Shown here one piece after another: positions 18,345 through 28,317 of a DNA stretch of 64,000 nucleotides. The first letter of the stretch is position 1; every line of letters begins with the position of its first letter. The translations under genes were made by a program, and so were the position numbers. Source of the stretch: Cutibacterium porci (GTDB taxonomy: Bacteria > Actinomycetota > Actinomycetes > Propionibacteriales > Propionibacteriaceae); assembly GCF_009696315.1 (NCBI RefSeq), contig NZ_VUMG01000002.1, positions 124,001 to 188,000 on the forward strand, written 5' to 3'. The notes below the pieces were generated by a model. The model made no database searches, was not told the DNA's origin, and saw only the letters and a program-made list of their open reading frames with translations.

Positions 18345-21300
18345 GTGTCAGAGATGGACAAAGTCATCCCGGCTCTCGTGGCGGCTGTGCAGGAGCAACA
18401 TGCCACCGGAGATCACTATCGTGAAGAGGTGATTCATCAGGCGATGGAACATCAGGTGCAGCTTGCGCTGCAACCTGGGCCGGTTCGCGTTGATGTTATC
18501 GTCGACCCCCCGTGGTCAGATGGCCAGATCAATTCAGTTCAGGTCGTCATGGATGATCGTCCGTTCCTCGTGGACACGGTGGTGTCTTGCTTACTGAAGC
18601 ATGGCTGGAGGGTTGAGGACGTCAGGCATCCGATCATCGGCGTGAAGCGTGACGGCAGCATGATCGAGTCGGTCGGAATGCCCGATCGTGGCGGTCGCTC
18701 CCCGGAATCGTGGATTCACATTGACGCGAGGGCTCCACTTGGTATCGATACCGAGAGTGCTGCCGAACAGCTTCGTAAGGATCTGAGTGCGTGCCTTGAT
18801 CAAGTCGTTCGTGCCACCGACGACTGGGGCGCAATGCACGAGGCAATGCTGCGTACAGCCGAGCTAGTCAGTGCGTCGCAGGGGCCAGCCGACGATCGCG
18901 ACTCAAGCCGTGAGCTGCTCGAATGGCTGGCCGATGATCACTTCATGTACCTCTCCTATGAGGAGTTTTCGGTCGATGGCGAGACGATGACTCCGGTTGC
19001 TGGTACCCGTCTGGGCATCGTTGAAGACGGTCCGCGGTTTGACGCCGTTGTGCATAGCGGGGACACAGCGACCATCGTCGTCACTAAGGATTCGGTCCGT
19101 TCAGCAGTACAGCGTAACGGCTACCGTGACTATATCGGTGTACGGATTCGTGACGAGCATGGCACTGTTGTGTCTGAGCACCGCTTCCTTGGCCTGCTAG
19201 GGTCTGCGGCGTACACGGAGTCGGTGGCTCATATTCCGGTATTGAGAGCTAAAGCATCTCGTATTCTCGCACTGTCTGGTTACCGTGCGAACTCCCATGG
19301 CGGAAAAGCCGTCATCCGCACGATTGCTGAGTTTCCACGTGACGATCTTTTTGAGGCTTCGGCCGAGGAGCTCGTGCCGCTCATTATGGCCATCGTCGAC
19401 TTGCGGGAAAAGCAGCACTTGCGTGCTCTGGTGCGTCGCGGGCCGTGGGGACGCTTCTTCCACCTCCTCGTCTTTGTCCCGGCGGACCGTTTCGATGCCA
19501 GCACGGTCGGCGTCGTTGAGAGGATCGTGGCTGGACGCACTGGTGCGGTAGAGGTTGACTCGACCACCATGATGGGGGAGTCCTCGCTAGTGCGAATCAT
19601 GGTGACGGCCAAGGTCGCGGACGGAGAAGTTTTGCCTCCGATTGACGATAAAGAACTGCAGGCCGAACTTGCGGACGCCACCTCGAACTGGGACGACGAG
19701 TTCATCACGTTGGCTAGCGCCATTCCAAGCAACCAGCGGGGAGTCGATTTTGGCCCCGAGTACAAGCAGGAATTCACGGCCAAGCAGGGCATCTTGGATT
19801 TGGAACTCCTCAATGGCCTGGCTGAAGACGATCTTGGGCTCGTAATGTACCGCCCCGATGACCCAGCTGATCCGTCCGATCTGAGACTCAAGATTTTCAA
19901 TCAGCGGGCTGCGATGACGCTATCTCAGGTGATGCCGCACCTATCGAGTTTGGGTGTGCAGATTGTCGATGAGCATCCGCACCGCATCGTCTTGCGTGGT
20001 CGGGACGTGTGGCTGTTCGATCTCGGTCTGCAAACTCCCGGTGAGCTTTGGACAGACGCCGGACGCCATCGTTTTACTGAGGCCTTTGCGGCTTCGTGGA
20101 AGGGGCAGTGCGAGTCTGATACTTTCTCCGGATTAGTGACAGAGGCTGGATTATCGTGGTCGCAGGTAGCAATGTTGCGGTGCATCGCTCGATACCTGCG
20201 TCAAGTTGGTAGCCCCTTTTCACAGACCTACATGGCGCGAGCCTTGCGGGCTAATCCAGGTTTGGCACGCGATCTCGTGAGGATCGTCGAGGCGAAGTTT
20301 GATCCCAGTGCGTTCGATGATGGAGCTGACGCTGGTCCGCAGCGTCTAGCCAACGTTGAAGAGCTATCCGAATCTTTCCTCGCTGACCTTGAGGATGTGG
20401 CGTCCCTCGACCATGACCGCATTTTGCGCATGATGCATGCAGTCATTAAGGCCATGATCCGTACCAACTGGTGGCAGAGCGATCGACGAGCGTTGGCCTT
20501 TAAGATCCGCCCGACAGAGCTCGATTTTGCCCCGGCACCTCGTCCCAAGTTTGAGATTTTCGTCAACTCGCCACGAGTGTCCGGCACCCACCTGAGGTTC
20601 GGTGCGGTTGCGCGCGGTGGCCTACGGTGGTCGGATCGACCCGAAGATTTTCGTACCGAGGTGCTCGGCCTGGTCAAGGCGCAGATGGTTAAGAACTCCG
20701 TCATCGTTCCGGCCGGTGCTAAGGGAGGATTTGTGCCTGCGCATCTTCCCGATGCCACGACACATCGAGCTGAATGGGCCGAAGAAGGCAAGGAGTGCTA
20801 CCGCATTTTTGTGTCCTCCTTGCTATCGCTGACAGACAATGTCGTTGAGGGTGAGGTCGTCGCACCGAAGAACGTTGTTCGTCATGATGGCGATGACCCG
20901 TACCTCGTTGTCGCGGCGGACAAAGGCACCGCAACGTTTTCGGATACCGCGAACGCCATCGCCGCCGACCATGGCTTCTGGCTTGGTGACGCCTTCGCTT
21001 CTGGTGGCTCACACGGCTACGACCACAAGGCGATGGGCATCACGGCCCGCGGCGCGTGGGAATCGGTCACACGACACCTGGCAGATTTAGGAATTAATCA
21101 GAGTGTCGACGACTTCACCTGCGTTGGCATTGGCGATATGTCCGGTGACGTTTTCGGCAACGGCATGTTGTTGAGTAAGCACATCAAATTGGTCGCGGCC
21201 TTTAACCACCGCCACGTTTTCGTCGACCCGACCCCGGATCCGCAAACCTCATGGCAGGAGCGTCGTCGTCTCTTCGATCTTCCGCGTTCGAGCTGGGGCG

Positions 21301-22964
21301 ACTATGACACGTCTCTTATTTCCGAGGGAGGTGGCGTCTGGGATCGCAGCTTGAAGTCGATCCCGATAAGCCAGCCCATGCATGAGGCGTTGGGAATTGA
21401 CGCATCGGTGAGCAGGATGACGCCCGACGACCTCATCTCTTCGATGTTGCGAGCCCCTGTTGATCTGTTGTGGAATGGCGGCATTGGTACCTATGTGCGC
21501 GCCACGAGTGAAACTGACGCTCAGGTCGGTGATCGTACTAACGATCCGGTGCGAATCACTGCCAAGGAAGTGCGTGCGAAAGCTGCTGGGGAAGGCGGAA
21601 ATCTGGGGTGGACCCAGGCCGGGCGTATTGAATATGCCCGCAATGGTGGTCGCATCAACACCGACTTCATCGACAACTCAGCAGGAGTCGATACTTCTGA
21701 CCATGAGGTCAACATCAAGATCCTTTTGGATGCTGAGGTGGCGGCAGGACGAATCAGTGAGAAGGAACGAGATGAGTTACTTCCAGCCATGGCAGATGAC
21801 GTTGCCGCATTGGTATTGCGCCACAACCGCGCACAGAACTTGGCCTTGGCTAACGCGCTGAGCCCATCGGGGCCGACAGCTGGGGTACTAGAAGCCTGGA
21901 TGTGTCAGCTTGAGGAATCGGGTCACCTTGATCGCGCTGTCGACACTATGCCATCGACCACGGAGATGAATCGTAGGATGGCGGCAGGGGAAGGGCTTTC
22001 TAGTCCAGAACTGTGTACTCTGCTGGCCTGGACGAAGATTGCGCTGTGCGACGCCGTGTTGGCGACAGACTTGCCAGAAGATCCATTCGTTGCAGACCGC
22101 CTCGTGGCCTATTTCCCGCCGCTATTGAGGGAGAGGTTCGCGCAGCAGATGCCGGCGCATCGGCTACATCGCGAGATCATCACGACCGAGGCCGTAAACC
22201 GCTTCGTCGACTCGCAGGGGATGACGGCTTACTACCGGTTGCATTTGCAGACGGGGGCAGATATTGCCCAGGTCATTCGATGCCAGCTGGCTGCTCGATC
22301 TGTCTTCGGGCTCGGACGAGTCGAGACTGACCTCGCCCACCTTGGCTTGGATGCCGTCCGAACTGCGAAGATTCGACTTGCGTTGCGAGACCTCGCGATG
22401 GATGCCACACGGTGGTTCCTTAATCACGGTGGTGCAGACGACATCGCAGGAACTATCGAGATCTACCGACCTGGTGTCACCAGGCTTGTTGGGACGCTAT
22501 CTGAGCTGTTGTTCGACGACAACGCGGACGCGTGGCAGGAGAAGGTCGATGAGGTCACCGATCTTGGGCTTGATCGTTCGGATGCTGCGGTCGTGGCCGC
22601 CTACGATTGGGGCCCCGTGCTTTTGAGCGTCGTCGAAATCTCCGAAGAGGGTCATCCACTAGACGAGGTTGCGAAGGCCTTCCTGACGTTGGCACGCCGC
22701 GTCGACATGATTCGCCTTACTCGGCTCGTCGAGCAACTTCCGCAGGACCGTCCGACCGATGCCAGAGTGCGGGCGAGCTTGCGTGAAGACTTGTTGCAAG
22801 TAATGTCCGACGCGACTCGTCGTGCTTTGAAGGTTGGAACAGACAATGTTCTGGCAGATGGTGGTCGTATTGTGGAATCCATAGCGACAAACCCGGATCT
22901 CGCTCACTGTGTCGTCATGGTCAGTGATCTACGGTCCGCAGTGGGCCAGGAGGTCACATTGTGA
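18345..22964 (+). CDS. gdh: Large NAD-specific glutamate dehydrogenase (GDH-180 type)
   Basis: About 1539 residues, the size of the L_180 class that oxidatively deaminates glutamate to 2-oxoglutarate with NAD. The N-terminal half holds ACT-like regulatory segments (DRPFLVDTVVSCLLKHGW). The catalytic core contains RFGAVARGGLRWSDR near residue 755, KAQMVKNSVIVPAGAKGGF near 780 (substrate Lys residues), and the dinucleotide-binding region GIGDMSGDVFGNG near 927. GTG 18345 follows GAAGG by 11 bases. A TAGAGT -10 box (18283-18288) lies 5 bases before in-frame ATG 18294, so a leaderless start adding 17 residues is possible. Its stop overlaps the PHP gene. Confidence 0.93.
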   Translation: MSEMDKVIPALVAAVQEQHATGDHYREEVIHQAMEHQVQLALQPGPVRVDVIVDPPWSDGQINSVQVVMDDRPFLVDTVVSCLLKHGWRVEDVRHPIIGVKRDGSMIESVGMPDRGGRSPESWIHIDARAPLGIDTESAAEQLRKDLSACLDQVVRATDDWGAMHEAMLRTAELVSASQGPADDRDSSRELLEWLADDHFMYLSYEEFSVDGETMTPVAGTRLGIVEDGPRFDAVVHSGDTATIVVTKDSVRSAVQRNGYRDYIGVRIRDEHGTVVSEHRFLGLLGSAAYTESVAHIPVLRAKASRILALSGYRANSHGGKAVIRTIAEFPRDDLFEASAEELVPLIMAIVDLREKQHLRALVRRGPWGRFFHLLVFVPADRFDASTVGVVERIVAGRTGAVEVDSTTMMGESSLVRIMVTAKVADGEVLPPIDDKELQAELADATSNWDDEFITLASAIPSNQRGVDFGPEYKQEFTAKQGILDLELLNGLAEDDLGLVMYRPDDPADPSDLRLKIFNQRAAMTLSQVMPHLSSLGVQIVDEHPHRIVLRGRDVWLFDLGLQTPGELWTDAGRHRFTEAFAASWKGQCESDTFSGLVTEAGLSWSQVAMLRCIARYLRQVGSPFSQTYMARALRANPGLARDLVRIVEAKFDPSAFDDGADAGPQRLANVEELSESFLADLEDVASLDHDRILRMMHAVIKAMIRTNWWQSDRRALAFKIRPTELDFAPAPRPKFEIFVNSPRVSGTHLRFGAVARGGLRWSDRPEDFRTEVLGLVKAQMVKNSVIVPAGAKGGFVPAHLPDATTHRAEWAEEGKECYRIFVSSLLSLTDNVVEGEVVAPKNVVRHDGDDPYLVVAADKGTATFSDTANAIAADHGFWLGDAFASGGSHGYDHKAMGITARGAWESVTRHLADLGINQSVDDFTCVGIGDMSGDVFGNGMLLSKHIKLVAAFNHRHVFVDPTPDPQTSWQERRRLFDLPRSSWGDYDTSLISEGGGVWDRSLKSIPISQPMHEALGIDASVSRMTPDDLISSMLRAPVDLLWNGGIGTYVRATSETDAQVGDRTNDPVRITAKEVRAKAAGEGGNLGWTQAGRIEYARNGGRINTDFIDNSAGVDTSDHEVNIKILLDAEVAAGRISEKERDELLPAMADDVAALVLRHNRAQNLALANALSPSGPTAGVLEAWMCQLEESGHLDRAVDTMPSTTEMNRRMAAGEGLSSPELCTLLAWTKIALCDAVLATDLPEDPFVADRLVAYFPPLLRERFAQQMPAHRLHREIITTEAVNRFVDSQGMTAYYRLHLQTGADIAQVIRCQLAARSVFGLGRVETDLAHLGLDAVRTAKIRLALRDLAMDATRWFLNHGGADDIAGTIEIYRPGVTRLVGTLSELLFDDNADAWQEKVDEVTDLGLDRSDAAVVAAYDWGPVLLSVVEISEEGHPLDEVAKAFLTLARRVDMIRLTRLVEQLPQDRPTDARVRASLREDLLQVMSDATRRALKVGTDNVLADGGRIVESIATNPDLAHCVVMVSDLRSAVGQEVTL

Positions 22965-23821
22965 GAATTGATCTCCACACCCACTCAACTATTTCAGACG
23001 GGACGGATTCACCAACGCGTCTGATGATGAAGGCCGCCAGGAGTGGTTTGGACGTCATCGCCCTTACCGATCACGACACCTTTGACGGACTGGAGGAGGC
23101 TCAGGCGGCCGGGCAGCGTTTCGGCGTCCGGCTGCTACCTGGCCTCGAGATGACGTGCCATATCGGTGGTCGAGATGTCCACCTGCTGGGTTATGGGACC
23201 CGTCTCGACGACCCGGTATTAGGGAAGGAACTACAAGCTACCCGCGTATCGCGAGTCACGCGTCTCGACGCCATCTGTCAACGGCTGTCTGATGCCGGGA
23301 TGACGGTAACAGTCAACGATGTGCACCGGGCTGCCGGGGCTGCTTCTAGCCTGGGGCGCCCTCACATCGCGGATGCGATGGTGGCCAAGGGGTACGTCGA
23401 GGACCGTGACGAAGCGTTTCGCGACTGGCTGTCCGAGGGGAAACCGGCCTATGTCTCCCGGCGTAGTGTCGCCTTGGAGGATGGTATTGATCTGATCCAT
23501 GATGCCGGCGGCGTCGCTGTGCTAGCCCATCCGTGGGGAAGAGGTACCCAGCAGGTTTTGACCCCGCAGGTCATTGCCTCCCTGTCGGCGTACCACCAGT
23601 TAGATGGGATTGAGGTCGATCATCAAGACCACGACCCGGCCGCCCGTCGGATGCTCTTTGATCTGGGGGGACGGCTCGGGTTAGTCCGAACTGGTGCAAG
23701 CGATTATCACGGGGCAGGCAAGAAGGATCACGAGCTGGGATGCAATGTGACGCGTGAAACTGCATATCGGGAGTTAGTGACGAGGATTCAGCTGCGCAGG
23801 GGAGTTCTTCGGGTCCGGTGA
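22961..23821 (+). CDS. PHP-domain phosphoesterase (TrpH/RNase AM family)
   Basis: A 286-residue PHP protein. Metal ligands are visible in DLHTHSTISDGT at the N-terminus, ALTDHDTFDG near 38-47, GLEMTCHI near 66, AVLAHPWG near 190 and GASDYHG near 248, the standard trinuclear PHP set. Related proteins hydrolyse 3',5'-nucleoside bisphosphates or trim 5' ends of RNA; the neighbourhood next to trpS is shared with many actinobacteria. GTG 22961 overlaps the glutamate dehydrogenase stop, implying translational coupling. It ends just before the trpS leader promoter. Confidence 0.88.
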   Translation: MRIDLHTHSTISDGTDSPTRLMMKAARSGLDVIALTDHDTFDGLEEAQAAGQRFGVRLLPGLEMTCHIGGRDVHLLGYGTRLDDPVLGKELQATRVSRVTRLDAICQRLSDAGMTVTVNDVHRAAGAASSLGRPHIADAMVAKGYVEDRDEAFRDWLSEGKPAYVSRRSVALEDGIDLIHDAGGVAVLAHPWGRGTQQVLTPQVIASLSAYHQLDGIEVDHQDHDPAARRMLFDLGGRLGLVRTGASDYHGAGKKDHELGCNVTRETAYRELVTRIQLRRGVLRVR

Positions 23822-23827
23822 GGCTGC

Positions 23828-23833
23828 TACAGT
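23828..23833 (+). promoter_or_regulatory. -10 box of the trpS leader transcript
   Basis: TACAGT ends 7 bases before ATG 23841, so the leader RNA may begin with the leader-peptide start codon. No convincing -35 hexamer is seen. Confidence 0.5.
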
Positions 23834-23840
23834 GACCGTC

Positions 23841-23897
23841 ATGACGTGTGCACCGGCGATGACCACCTCGTGGTGGCGTCGCGGTGCGCGGCGCTGA
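23841..23897 (+). CDS. trpS leader peptide with tandem Trp codons
   Basis: An 18-codon frame, MTCAPAMTTSWWRRGARR, ends at TGA 23895-23897. It has two consecutive Trp codons (23871-23876) in a very short peptide, 68 bases upstream of trpS. Trp is rare, so a WW pair directly before a tryptophanyl-tRNA synthetase gene is the classic sign of ribosome-mediated attenuation. ATG 23841 fits a leaderless start after the TACAGT box; the in-frame ATG 23859 would give a 12-residue version. Three copies of GGTGGCG (23872, 23921, 23945) in the leader RNA can compete for the same partner CGTCGCC (23934-23940). Regulatory role is inferred from sequence alone. Confidence 0.7.
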   Translation: MTCAPAMTTSWWRRGARR

Positions 23898-23908
23898 ACC
23901 ATGTGAGG

Positions 23909-23959
23909 GCCGCCTTGCCTGGTGGCGCTTCCTCGTCGCCGGAAGGTGGCGAGGAAGGA
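23909..23959 (+). promoter_or_regulatory. trpS attenuator: hairpin sequestering the ribosome binding site
   Basis: Arm CTTCCTCGTCGCC (23928-23940) pairs with GGTGGCGAGGAAG (23945-23957) over 13 base pairs with two G-U pairs and a GGAA loop. The second arm contains most of the trpS Shine-Dalgarno GAGGAAGGA (23951-23959). An upstream stem GCCGCC (23909-23914) / GGTGGC (23921-23926) could be the alternative element. This suggests control of translation, not transcription termination, since no T-run follows. Confidence 0.6.
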
Positions 23960-23965
23960 TTATCG

Positions 23966-25057
23966 ATGACTAGTGACGTCTCCGAAGTCGGATCCAACGC
24001 TGCCACTTTGGCGCGTTCGCAGGCCCGTAGCGATAAGGTTGAGGCTGATTTAGCCGCCCATCCGGATAGATGGCGCATTCTCACAGGTGATCGTCCTACT
24101 GGCAGTCTGCATATTGGGCACTACTTCGGGTCGCTAGCCAACCGGGTGCGCCTGCAGGATAAGGGCATTGAGTCTTTTCTGGTTATCGCCGATTATCAGG
24201 TCATCTATGACCGCGACGGGGTGGGCGAACTCCAAGCTAATGTGATGTCGAATCTCGCCGATTATTTGGCAATTGGCATTGATCCAGCTCGTACGACGAT
24301 TTTTACCCATTCGGCTCTGCCAGCTCTCAATCAGTTGCTGTTGCCTTTCTTGTCGTTGGTGACTGACGCCGAACTGCGTCGCAACCCGACTGTTAAAGAC
24401 GAATTGGCCACCTCAGACCGTCCGATGTCTGGACTCATGCTTACCTTCCCGGTACATCAGGCTGCTGACATCCTCTTCTGCAAGGCGAATCTTGTCCCTG
24501 TCGGTCGTGACCAGCTTCCACATATTGAACAGACTCGCGTTATTGCGCGGCGGTTCGACGAGCGATATGGGCGCGCTGAAGCCTCCAAGCCGGTCTTTCC
24601 CGAGCCCGAAGCGTTACTCTCGGCGACCCCGCACGTCCTCGGCCTCGATGGCACGAAGATGAGCAAGTCGAAGGGCAACACCATTGAGCTTGGCATGACC
24701 GCAGACCAGACCGCCAAACTTATTAAGAAGGCCAAGACTGACGTCGAGCGTCATATCACCTGGGATCCGGAGGGCCGACCGGAAGTTTCCAATCTGCTGT
24801 TGCTTACGTCGCTATGCGAAAACACCGATCCGGTTACTATCGCCGAGGAGATCGGCGACGGCGGGTCTGGGATGCTCAAAAAGCGTCTGACAGCGTCCCT
24901 TAATGATTATTTCGCCCCGATTCGAAAGCGTCGTGCTGAATTGGCATCGGACGAGGGGCATTTGCGTGAGGTCCTCCGCGATGGCAATGCGAAGGCCGCT
25001 GCTGTGGCTGACCAGACGCTGGCAGAGGTGCGCGAAGCTATGAAGATGGTGTACTGA
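23966..25057 (+). CDS. trpS: Tryptophanyl-tRNA synthetase
   Basis: A 363-residue class I synthetase that charges tRNA-Trp. The HIGH-type motif is PTGSLHIGHYFG near residue 42-53 and the KMSKS loop is GTKMSKSKG near 228-236; SDRPMSGLMLTFPVHQAADI and VGRDQLPHIEQTR are the conserved TrpS signature blocks. ATG 23966 is chosen because GAGGAAGGA lies 6 bases upstream; a longer frame from 23846 is an artefact of the leader. Expression is probably controlled by the leader peptide and hairpin just upstream. It converges on the amino-acid permease gene with about 40 bases between the stops. Confidence 0.95.
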   Translation: MTSDVSEVGSNAATLARSQARSDKVEADLAAHPDRWRILTGDRPTGSLHIGHYFGSLANRVRLQDKGIESFLVIADYQVIYDRDGVGELQANVMSNLADYLAIGIDPARTTIFTHSALPALNQLLLPFLSLVTDAELRRNPTVKDELATSDRPMSGLMLTFPVHQAADILFCKANLVPVGRDQLPHIEQTRVIARRFDERYGRAEASKPVFPEPEALLSATPHVLGLDGTKMSKSKGNTIELGMTADQTAKLIKKAKTDVERHITWDPEGRPEVSNLLLLTSLCENTDPVTIAEEIGDGGSGMLKKRLTASLNDYFAPIRKRRAELASDEGHLREVLRDGNAKAAAVADQTLAEVREAMKMVY

Positions 25058-25098
25058 AATAGCCTGGCGCACCCATCTGCCAGCGACGTGGTGCGTCG

Positions 25099-26607
25099 TC
25101 AGAAGGTGATGCCATCCTGAGTATTGAGCTCGGGATGGCGTGCCTTATTGCGCTTGACGGCTGGCCAGGCCAGGAGCATGACAGCGATATATATCAACGA
25201 GGCCGCCAAGACGATTCGATTCTGGGGATCGAGCACCATGAGGGCCGTCACCCCGGCCAAGCTGACAATCCCGAAAATACCTGTGACTGGATAACCGGGC
25301 ATGTGGAAACCGGAATCGGCGATCTGTCCTCGGTTCACGCGTCGACGCAATACCAACTGGCACCAGAAAATCGTTGCCCATGTCCAGATGACACCGACCG
25401 CAGCTGTGTTGATGGATATCTCGAAGGCGCGCTCGGGAACGACGTACTCAAGTCCCACGCCGAGCAGGAAGACACTAGCGGTCATGAGGATGCCACCGGC
25501 AGGAGTTTTGAACCGGTTAAGGGTGCCCGCAAATCGTGGAGCTTCGCCTGCTGCCGCTAGTGACTTGAGGACTCGACCCGTCGCGTATAGCCCTGAGTTA
25601 ACCGAGGAAAATGCGGCGGTGATGACGACGACGTTCATGGCGTCGCCAATCCACCCCACTCCCATAGCTGAGAATGCCGTAACGAATGGGGATTCGTCGG
25701 CGGAATATGCCTTATATGGCAGCAGCATGGCCAGCAACGCCAGCGATCCTAGATAGAACACGACGAGCCGGAAAACGACCGCATGAACTGCCTTGGGAAT
25801 GACCTTGCGGGGATTCTGCGTCTCTCCGGACGCTGTGCCGACCAGCTCGATTGTGGCGTAGGCGAAGATGACGCCTTGGATGACGAGCACCAGGGGTAAC
25901 ACCCCTTGCGGGGCGAACCCGCCGTCGAATCGCCAGAGGTTCGACACCGCTGCCTGGTGACCGCCGACATTGACGTGGGAGGCAACCAAACCGATGGCGA
26001 CGACGATGAACGCCGTCAAAGCGACGACCTTGAGCAATGCCGCCCAAAACTCGAATTCTCCGAAGGCCTTGACACTGATGAGGTTGACCGATACGAGGAT
26101 CACCAAGGCGACAAGCGAGGGTATCCACATCGGCAGATTGGGCCACCAAAATTGCAGGTAGGTTCCTATGGCAGTTAGTTCGGCGATACCCGATGTCATC
26201 CAGTTGAGCATGTACATCCAGCCCACGGCATACGCCCAGCGATCGCCAAGGAGTTCCCGGGCGTAGGACACGAAAGAGCCGCTTGAGGGACGATGGATAA
26301 CGAGCTCGCCGAGCGCCCTCATGACAAAGAAGGCAATGAGTGCGCAGAAAGCGTAGGACAGGATGACTGCTGGCCCGGCACTGCGCAGGCGGCTTCCCGC
26401 GCCGAGAAAGAGCCCGACCCCAATCGCCCCACCGATTGCCATCATCTGGACTTGGCGATTGGACAGGGTCGCGGCATAGCCTTCGTCACCGCGATCAACG
26501 ACGTGTTGGGTCTCTCTGTTCTCAGAGAGTTGGGGGTCGGCACGAGGCGCGCTGACCTTAAGGGTTTGCGGACCATCATCACGAAACCGCTGGGTTGTGT
26601 GGGTCAT
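25099..26607 (-). CDS. APC-family amino-acid permease (AnsP/CycA/GabP type)
   Basis: A 502-residue membrane protein with about twelve hydrophobic segments and the amino-acid transporter family signature: QVQMMAIGGAIGVGLFLGAG at the first membrane segment, GSFVSYARELLGDRWAYAVG, and ELVGTASGETQNPRKVIPKA. The family imports amino acids by proton symport. The exact substrate (asparagine, GABA or alanine/serine/glycine) cannot be assigned. GGAAGG lies 6 bases before ATG 26607; ATG 26610 is the alternative. A long dyad sits in the upstream region, a possible control site. There is no link to the neighbouring helicase beyond direction. Confidence 0.9.
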   Translation of the reverse strand: MTHTTQRFRDDGPQTLKVSAPRADPQLSENRETQHVVDRGDEGYAATLSNRQVQMMAIGGAIGVGLFLGAGSRLRSAGPAVILSYAFCALIAFFVMRALGELVIHRPSSGSFVSYARELLGDRWAYAVGWMYMLNWMTSGIAELTAIGTYLQFWWPNLPMWIPSLVALVILVSVNLISVKAFGEFEFWAALLKVVALTAFIVVAIGLVASHVNVGGHQAAVSNLWRFDGGFAPQGVLPLVLVIQGVIFAYATIELVGTASGETQNPRKVIPKAVHAVVFRLVVFYLGSLALLAMLLPYKAYSADESPFVTAFSAMGVGWIGDAMNVVVITAAFSSVNSGLYATGRVLKSLAAAGEAPRFAGTLNRFKTPAGGILMTASVFLLGVGLEYVVPERAFEISINTAAVGVIWTWATIFWCQLVLRRRVNRGQIADSGFHMPGYPVTGIFGIVSLAGVTALMVLDPQNRIVLAASLIYIAVMLLAWPAVKRNKARHPELNTQDGITF

Positions 26608-26643
26608 CATCGACCTTCCAGAACGTCTGACTGGGTTACGGAT

Positions 26644-26672
26644 GTGGTGCCCCAGTAAGCCGGGGGCACCAC
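26644..26672. repeat. Perfect 10-bp inverted repeat upstream of the amino-acid permease
   Basis: GTGGTGCCCC (26644-26653) and GGGGCACCAC (26663-26672) are exact reverse complements around a 9-base loop. The dyad ends 37 bases before the permease start and downstream of a possible minus-strand -10 box (TACACT, around 26690). It could be an operator, an RNA hairpin in the permease leader, or a terminator of the helicase gene. Confidence 0.6.
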
Positions 26673-26766
26673 AACTTGTTCAGTGTAAAGGCCGAAGCGG
26701 TCACCTCAGGGGCCTCTTCGTGGCCGAATTGTGGATCAGACGTGATCGATGCCGTCGGTAAGACGG

Positions 26767-28317
26767 TCACTTGTGCAAGGCGTTTCGGGCGCGTCGTCGC
26801 CGCGGCCGCGCCTGGCGTTGACTGCCCACCGCATCACGCTTGCGACTGTTCGCCGTGCGCCCTTTCGCGTGTGTGGTCGGCTGTTGGGCATCTCGCTCAG
26901 GAGCAGCCCCTGCGACCACTTTGCCGTTGCGACGACGAATCCGCTTTCGACGCGTGTGTCCTCCGTCCCGGGAATCATCACGAGAACTGCGTCGCAGGGT
27001 CTTCTCGGAATCATCGTGGCGGTGATGCCGCCGTTTCCTTTCGGTATCGTCCTTCGTCGCGCCGGTTACGGTGCCATCGACGCCTTCGGGGATAGCGAGA
27101 TCGGTGTACAGGTGCGGGGAGGTGGAATAGGTTTCAATCGGCTCAGGAAGTTCAAGGTTCAGAGCTTTATCGATAACCTTCCAGCGGGTGACGTCAGCCC
27201 AATCAACGAGGGTGACAGCAACGCCCTTGGCACCAGCGCGACCGGTGCGACCAATACGGTGAACGTACGTTTTCTCGTCCTCGGGGCACTCATGGTTGAT
27301 GACGTGAGATACTCCGGTGACGTCGATGCCGCGGGCGGCGACATCGGTAGCCACCAGAATGGTCGCGTCGCCATGGCGGAACTTTTTGAGAGCCTTTTCC
27401 CGGGCAACCTGCGTGAGATCGCCATGGATGGCGCGGGCCTTAAAACCACGGTCGCTGAGGTCGTCAGACAGCCGCTGGCACGCGCGCTTGGTGCGGCAGA
27501 AAATGATGACTTTCTCGACGTCATTGGCCTGCAGAATGCGTCCAATAATCTCGATCTTGTCGAGCGGATGGGCTTGGTAAACGAATTGCTGAGTGTCGGG
27601 GACAGTGGCCTGAGTGTCGGCTCCCTCAGCGCGAACATGTACCGGTCGGTTCAGCTGAGATCGGGCTAGGGCCATTATTGGGGCCGGCATGGTTGCCGAA
27701 AACAGCATGGTCTGTCGAGAAGTGGGAGTACGCGCAATGAGGTTTTCCACATCGGGTAGGAAGCCGAGGTCTAGCATCTCGTCGGCCTCGTCGAGGACCA
27801 CAATGCGTACATGGGACAGGTCGAGGTCCGTGCGCTGGGATAGGTCAAGAAGGCGTCCAGGAGTACCGACGACAACGTCGACTCCTGCCTTGAGCGCGTC
27901 AATCTGTGGCTCATAGCCGACCCCGCCGTAGACGGTGAGGATACGTGCGCCTCGGACGGACGCCGCAGTGGAGATGTCTTTAGATACCTGGAGCGCCAGC
28001 TCCCTGGTAGGGCACATAACGAGTGCTTGGGGTTTGCCTTTGGCGGTGAGTCCGTCCCAACCCTCATCGCCGGGCATGATGATGCGCTGGAGGATCGTGA
28101 TACCGAAGGCGAGAGTTTTGCCAGTGCCGGTACGAGCTTGCCCAATGAGATCGGTGCCCTCAACGGCAATGGGGATCGACATAGCCTGGATAGGGAAGGG
28201 TGAAACGATTCCCACCTCTTGCAGTGCTTGGCAAATATCTCCGCGGACGCCGAGGTCGGCGAAGGAAGTGGGAGCAGAAACAGTAGTCTCGGTCAGTGTC
28301 TTGGCCTCTTCATGCAT
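26767..28317 (-). CDS. DEAD-box ATP-dependent RNA helicase (RhlE-like)
   Basis: About 516 residues. All core motifs are present: Q-motif (FPIQAMSIPIA), Walker A (GQARTGTGKT), PTRELA, GG, TPGRLLD, DEAD, SAT, and in the second RecA domain RGID and HRIGRTGR. The last 110 residues are a disordered Arg/Lys-rich RNA-binding tail, typical of actinobacterial RhlE homologues. It probably unwinds structured RNA in ribosome assembly or decay. Start is uncertain: ATG 28317 gives the family-like N-terminus but lacks a ribosome binding site; ATG 28425 has AGAGGG 8 bases upstream and adds 36 residues. The neighbouring ferritin-like gene is a conserved divergent partner. Confidence 0.93.
   Translation of the reverse strand: MHEEAKTLTETTVSAPTSFADLGVRGDICQALQEVGIVSPFPIQAMSIPIAVEGTDLIGQARTGTGKTLAFGITILQRIIMPGDEGWDGLTAKGKPQALVMCPTRELALQVSKDISTAASVRGARILTVYGGVGYEPQIDALKAGVDVVVGTPGRLLDLSQRTDLDLSHVRIVVLDEADEMLDLGFLPDVENLIARTPTSRQTMLFSATMPAPIMALARSQLNRPVHVRAEGADTQATVPDTQQFVYQAHPLDKIEIIGRILQANDVEKVIIFCRTKRACQRLSDDLSDRGFKARAIHGDLTQVAREKALKKFRHGDATILVATDVAARGIDVTGVSHVINHECPEDEKTYVHRIGRTGRAGAKGVAVTLVDWADVTRWKVIDKALNLELPEPIETYSTSPHLYTDLAIPEGVDGTVTGATKDDTERKRRHHRHDDSEKTLRRSSRDDSRDGGHTRRKRIRRRNGKVVAGAAPERDAQQPTTHAKGRTANSRKRDAVGSQRQARPRRRRARNALHK

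Follow-up and report, generated by a model that had tools for sequence, protein, structure and literature searches.

What controls trpS in Cutibacterium, and at which step of gene expression, is the question raised by a short frame with two adjacent Trp codons (WW) and a hairpin that both precede the tryptophanyl-tRNA synthetase gene in the 64,000-nucleotide stretch of Cutibacterium porci DNA that we analyzed (hereafter, the window). Trp attenuators of actinobacterial trp operons and of Streptomyces avermitilis trpS2 have been predicted (Seliverstov et al. 2005, PMC1262725), and the S. lividans trpS leader TrpL2 was described in 2021 as leaderless, on the basis of mapped start sites, with two hairpins and no U-rich stretch (PMC8079986). 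We consider it fairly probable that the Cutibacterium locus is a ribosome-mediated Trp attenuator for trpS, which descended from the classical transcription attenuator of actinobacterial trpS. The features on which this reading is built are collected in Table 1, with the paired segments numbered 1 to 6 in the direction of transcription.

Table 1. Features of the trpS leader region, in positions of the window.
Feature	Position	Strand	Remark
Extended -10 element TGC-TACAGT of the leader transcript	23825-23833	+	Direct sequence reading
Leader peptide ORF, 18 codons, MTCAPAMTTSWWRRGARR followed by stop	23841-23897	+	Direct reading; predicted leaderless
Candidate regulatory Trp codons TGG TGG, adjacent	23871-23876	+	7 of 9 Cutibacterium species
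Helix 1:2, protector/pause-type hairpin directly 3' of the Trp codons	23875-23895 (23875-23883 with 23887-23895)	+	
Helix 2:3, antiterminator equivalent	23888-23913 (GCGGC 23888-23892 with GCCGC 23909-23913)	+	
Helix 3:4, at the position of the relatives' terminator hairpin	23909-23926 (GCCGCC 23909-23914 with GGTGGC 23921-23926)	+	
Helix 4:5, candidate anti-sequestor	23919-23942 (23919-23927 with 23934-23942)	+	Putative function
Helix 5:6, 13-bp hairpin over the trpS ribosome binding site	23928-23957	+	Kept in 9 of 9 Cutibacterium
trpS Shine-Dalgarno AAGGA	23955-23959	+	GAGGAAGGA identical in 8 species
trpS, tryptophanyl-tRNA synthetase	23966-25057	+	TIGR00233

Direct reading of the leader bore out the 18-codon WW frame and the -10 box that the earlier note had placed 7 nt before its ATG. 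A TG at 23825-23826 upstream of TACAGT (23828-23833) makes this box an extended -10 element, and the leader ATG lies exactly 7 nt downstream of it, a TAxxxT/7-nt/ATG geometry that was common to all nine Cutibacterium genomes compared; when the sister genus was included, the spacing was exactly 7 nt in 13 of 13 genomes. In P. acnes, the TAnnnT motif is centered on average 9 nt 5' of mapped start points, and leaderless mRNAs were reported to be common (PMC3848588). From this distance, the leader transcript is expected to start at about 23839-23841, on the leader ATG or no more than about 2 nt away from it; the mRNA would then carry little or no 5' untranslated sequence, and the frame is probably translated from a leaderless mRNA. 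A WW pair by itself is not rare, since of the 844 ORFs in the window that have 8-30 codons, 8 contain one; what goes beyond chance is instead its conservation at this place together with the hairpin. A further pairing was observed at 23863-23876, where an upstream CCACC can pair with the GGTGG of the two Trp codons; it amounts to 5-6 bp or more in six of seven close species, with a more distant equivalent in L090. This hairpin may hold the leader in a folded state when it is not being translated, or may slow the ribosome at WW.

The downstream gene product scored 222.5 bits against TIGR00233 (cut-off, 176.75). That TrpS might extend at its N-terminus across the leader region was ruled out, since the in-frame upstream open frame is not conserved among species (364-411 aa), and the start at ATG 23966, 6 nt from the end of the AAGGA, is therefore right. 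Helix 5:6 is perfect, with CTTCCTCGTCGCC (23928-23940) pairing with GGTGGCGAGGAAG (23945-23957) across the loop GGAA, and its 3' arm takes in GAGG as well as the initial three bases of AAGGA; the 13-bp hairpin carrying the trpS Shine-Dalgarno in its 3' arm was thus found just as had been claimed. At -24.9 kcal/mol, it was the strongest perfect hairpin overlapping a ribosome binding site (RBS) among 68 candidate starts in the window, the next being -13.7 kcal/mol. Its stability ranged from -13.8 to -24.9 kcal/mol across the nine Cutibacterium species, and it was missing from all five sister-genus genomes.

The alternative pairings that are conserved comprise helices 1:2, 2:3 and 3:4, which follow immediately on the Trp codons, and farther on 4:5 and 5:6. 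In this genome helix 1:2 has 9 bp (-15.0 kcal/mol); it has 5-6 bp in six of seven other Cutibacterium species, and only -3.0 kcal/mol in L089. Helix 2:3, which is mutually exclusive with both 1:2 and 3:4, was present with 4-5 bp (-3.8 to -9.0 kcal/mol), and helix 3:4 with 6 bp (-11 to -14 kcal/mol), in eight of eight species examined; 3:4 is not followed by a U-run, the sequence after the hairpin being GCTTCCTC. Region 5 is able to pair with region 4 as well as with region 6, and the resulting helix 4:5 has 7-10 bp (-10.1 to -15.6 kcal/mol), again in eight of eight species. With region 1 starting at 23875, region 2 at 23888-23894, the leader stop codon at 23895-23897 and region 3 starting at 23909, the helices are placed such that a ribosome on WW would mask region 1 and a ribosome at the stop codon would mask region 2. 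The earlier note had also pointed to three copies of GGTGGCG, one of them over the Trp codons, that could pair with the same CGTCGCC segment. The three exact copies are there, at 23872, 23921 and 23945, but they are peculiar to this species, and the pairing of region 1 with region 5 is not conserved: as a conserved switch it was ruled out by its uneven strength, since four species reach about -9 kcal/mol and a fifth has -6.8, but the other three have -2.3 or weaker.

The comparison within the genus covered nine Cutibacterium species, one genome each, with helix statistics on the eight that have WW or CW leaders; pairs were counted at helix-anchored positions, because in the MAFFT alignment an additional loop base of L088 had ended up within region 3. 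Alignment of the region upstream of trpS, as proposed in the earlier note, showed WW in 7/9 species, the RBS hairpin in 9/9 and an invariant -10 spacing. That note regarded loss of the Trp codons or of the hairpin in close relatives as speaking against its reading; the hairpin was kept throughout, and WW was lost in L091 and half lost, to CW, in L086, so that the element can be lost. WW was also seen in four of five sister-genus genomes. Leader length was 18 codons in 11 of 12 WW/CW orthologues of the two genera, with 25 codons in L090 owing to an in-frame insertion, and the stop codon always came after eight sense codons counted from the first Trp codon or its Cys replacement, the N-terminal half of the leader drifting while its end stays similar. 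In eight Cutibacterium species, the leader stop codon lies 66-72 nt upstream of trpS with a stable hairpin between. Compensatory changes within the genus were few: C-G to U-A in 5:6 of L087, G-C to A-U in 3:4 of L090, and C-G to U-A at the edge of 4:5 in L088. Most intra-genus changes are wobble changes that preserve 4:5 and 5:6 alike.

Individual loci depart from this pattern. In L086 (genome G005), codon 11 of the leader, the first Trp codon, is TGC (Cys), a change that also breaks the hairpin between the Trp codons and the bases directly upstream. In L091 (genome G004), the promoter geometry and the RBS hairpin are kept but WW is gone; the leader ORF there, 36 codons long, reads into trpS and terminates at an ATGA overlap. 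Translational coupling may have taken the place of Trp sensing in this species. Four sister-genus loci (L092-L095) have the same promoter geometry, a WWRRC.RP leader, a 10-bp 3:4 hairpin with a weak U-tail, and an open trpS RBS. In the fifth, L096 (genome G081), the leader ORF and attenuator are wholly missing, and a -10-like TAGAGT lies about 30 nt upstream of trpS.

The origin of the 1-2-3-4 core was approached by scanning 169 trpS upstream regions of Cutibacterium and other Actinobacteria for TGGTGG in a short ORF, near its stop codon and followed by a G+C-rich hairpin. This signature was found in 44 of the 169 regions, a few of them duplicates and seven from Cutibacterium; of 852 control windows, only 4 had it. 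An alignment of 29 leaders from outside Cutibacterium served to build a covariance model, R1, that contains no Cutibacterium sequence. A blind search for conserved helices in these 29 leaders returned the 3:4 hairpin as the longest helix (93.1% paired, 16 double-change cells, covariation above 500 of 500 shuffles) and the exclusive helix 2:3 as the second (88.6% paired, covariation above 495 of 500 shuffles). These conserved helices of the relatives are those of a classical trp-type attenuator; their 3:4 is terminator-like, and many have U-rich tails, such as TTTCTCTT in L064 and TTTTTGTC in L048. R1 correctly located all eight Cutibacterium leaders that have WW or CW, with E-values of 2.8e-5 to 7e-3 over 172 kb. 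Against the whole 2.6-Mb genome, the element in the window was its best match, at a modest E-value of 0.008. Among 198 genomes of the class, 32 had a match at E up to 0.001, and a WW leader lay directly 5' of trpS, which was of two TrpS types, in 20 of 30 inspected R1-matched loci. R1 also matched WW leaders in L181 and L188, where the gene that follows encodes a chorismate-binding enzyme similar to anthranilate synthase component I, an assignment that lies below the family cut-offs. At another trpS locus with a WW leader, L162, a hairpin of -21.0 kcal/mol lies 18-52 nt before the assigned start; this locus may provide another example of RBS control, independent of the first. Rfam yielded no family, T-box included, at 20000-28000 with E up to 1, nothing relevant on nine related loci, and only a tRNA and no T-box in the whole window at the gathering threshold; the element therefore corresponds to no riboswitch, T-box or Trp leader listed in Rfam, and the widespread actinobacterial trpS attenuator with the core 1:2, 2:3 and 3:4 has no Rfam family.

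In Cutibacterium, 3:4 is shorter than in the relatives, lacks a U-run and has next to it an RBS hairpin that is specific to the genus and absent in the sister genus; from this we infer that the output has moved from transcription termination to translation initiation. Accordant with this anatomy, the following course of events is proposed. Transcription would begin on the leader ATG or about 2 nt from it at most, with a ribosome translating the 18-codon leader while transcription proceeds. When Trp-tRNA is ample, the ribosome would reach the stop codon and cover region 2, leaving region 3 just free, whereupon 3:4 would form, region 5 would be available to region 6, and the trpS RBS would be buried. 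When Trp-tRNA is short, the ribosome would halt on WW; when its A site holds the first Trp codon, it would cover about 12-15 nt downstream and so mask region 1, region 2 would be free to form 2:3, and the freed region 4 would hold region 5 in helix 4:5, with the RBS open. The same ribosome register, in which WW masks region 1 and the stop codon masks region 2, is that of the E. coli trp leader. trpS would be on when charged Trp-tRNA is short, and the sign is therefore right for a synthetase gene. The leaderless start, the stalling on WW, the relay through 4:5 and control at translation, not transcription, are what we infer in this scheme, the switching step being drawn from anatomy and homology. 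Translational Trp attenuation of trpS, as the earlier note had envisaged it, is consistent with the WW leader, the leaderless geometry, the conserved RBS hairpin and the homology to Trp attenuators, and has to do without the pairing of regions 1 and 5.

Several results bear on whether such a switch would work. Partition-function folding gave a mean RBS hairpin occupancy of 0.85 with a ribosome on WW versus 0.86 with a ribosome at the stop codon, because 5:6 outweighs 4:5; as there is no equilibrium difference, the switch, if it exists, must be kinetic, and a kinetic trap is possible because 4:5 forms before region 6 is transcribed. With a Kinwalker-like co-transcriptional heuristic, four of eight species followed the expected direction at a barrier limit of 9 kcal/mol, no clear picture emerged at 7 kcal/mol, and several species went the opposite way at 5 kcal/mol; being parameter-dependent, the heuristic was not counted as evidence. 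Counting against the mechanism are the weakness of 2:3 (-3.8 to -9.0 kcal/mol) versus 3:4 (-11 to -14 kcal/mol), the loss of one or both Trp codons in two of nine species, and the small number of compensatory changes within the genus.

These features leave room for other explanations. It is rather unlikely, in our judgment, that the element is still a classical transcription attenuator in which 3:4 or 5:6 terminates without a U-run (or with Rho), the overlap with the RBS being secondary. Such a reading would be in keeping with a 1-2-3-4 core that is homologous to transcription attenuators, many of them U-tailed, with the sister genus, whose 3:4 is strong and its U-tail weak, and with the S. 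lividans trpS attenuator, likewise reported without a U-rich stretch (PMC8079986), but no terminator-like site was found at 23700-24100, and the Cutibacterium 3:4 has only 6 bp, while 5:6 covers the RBS genus-wide.

Alternatively, the RBS hairpin might be a constant damper or a sensor of something other than Trp starvation, beside a leader core that is the decaying remnant of an ancestral attenuator and has ceased to switch. Equilibrium folding without any ribosome-dependent change would suit this explanation, as would the persistence of the hairpin where WW is lost (L091) or half lost (L086); however, WW, the distance to the stop codon and the promoter spacing are held in seven of nine species despite the N-terminal drift, which a relic should not keep, and we regard it as quite improbable. 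Least credible to us, to the point of being very improbable, is a Trp-independent coupling, in which ribosomes that finish the leader reinitiate at trpS or help to open it. The ATGA overlap in L091 is typical coupling geometry, and leader-peptide reinitiation has been proposed for Actinobacteria (PMC4833913), but the stop codon is far from trpS in the other eight species, with the stable hairpin between, and the conserved WW would be left unexplained. We retain translational attenuation by a ribosome on the leader peptide as the preferred reading.

The attenuator kind itself is already known. Like the classical Trp attenuators of Corynebacterium and Streptomyces trp operons, S. avermitilis trpS2 and S. 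lividans trpL2-trpS, the Cutibacterium element combines a Trp-codon leader with alternative hairpins, and it shares with the Streptomyces attenuators its position before trpS and, as predicted, a leaderless start, which was reported for S. lividans (PMC8079986). R1 recognizes both the Cutibacterium core and trpS leaders with S. lividans-like peptides (MTTRTCTQLWWAA). The output of the classical Trp attenuators is described as transcription termination, whereas Cutibacterium has a 3:4 without a U-run and an extra RBS hairpin. Translation attenuators of erm genes are covered in the literature (PMC8274638). In these, a ribosome stalled on the leader opens a hairpin over the RBS of the next gene. 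The Cutibacterium element resembles these in having an RBS hairpin after a leader peptide, but erm stalling is induced by a drug and not by a shortage of charged tRNA. The translational T-boxes of actinobacterial ileS (PMC1262725) likewise combine a tRNA-synthetase gene with a hairpin hiding the Shine-Dalgarno, but their sensor is uncharged tRNA binding to the RNA, whereas a ribosome on a leader peptide is proposed here. Mycobacterial leaderless polycysteine ORFs before cysteine genes were identified as attenuators (Canestrari et al. 2020, cited in PMC9094748 and PMC13236596); by the descriptions in these citing papers, they are leaderless short ORFs with regulatory codons in a row near the end, and they attenuate the gene downstream in response to an amino acid, features that the Cutibacterium leader would share, and they differ in using cysteine instead of tryptophan, other genes and another RNA. 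Earlier predictions involving the ribosome binding site are mentioned in PMC4833913, and Korolev 2015 and Lopatovskaya 2010, to go by their citation there, may have predicted some such attenuators. A literature search for Cutibacterium acnes, leader peptide and tryptophan returned nothing relevant, and in the literature examined no report was found of a genus-wide change of output in Cutibacterium trpS.

A stronger proposition, which we put forward tentatively and with somewhat more doubt than belief, is that within one genus a Trp transcription attenuator was converted to a translational one by loss of the terminator and addition of a second hairpin pair, such that 2:3 leads to 4:5 and to an open RBS. 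If this is true, the six-segment relay, run from a leader peptide that is itself leaderless, would document a change of attenuator output with the sensor kept. A Trp-codon attenuator before trpS is widespread in Actinobacteria, and one genus appears to wire the same sensor to another output, by which the evolution from transcription to translation attenuation would become testable in close relatives, namely Cutibacterium versus its sister genus. It would also provide a concrete hypothesis for how an essential tRNA synthetase is adjusted in Cutibacterium, a genus of skin bacteria.
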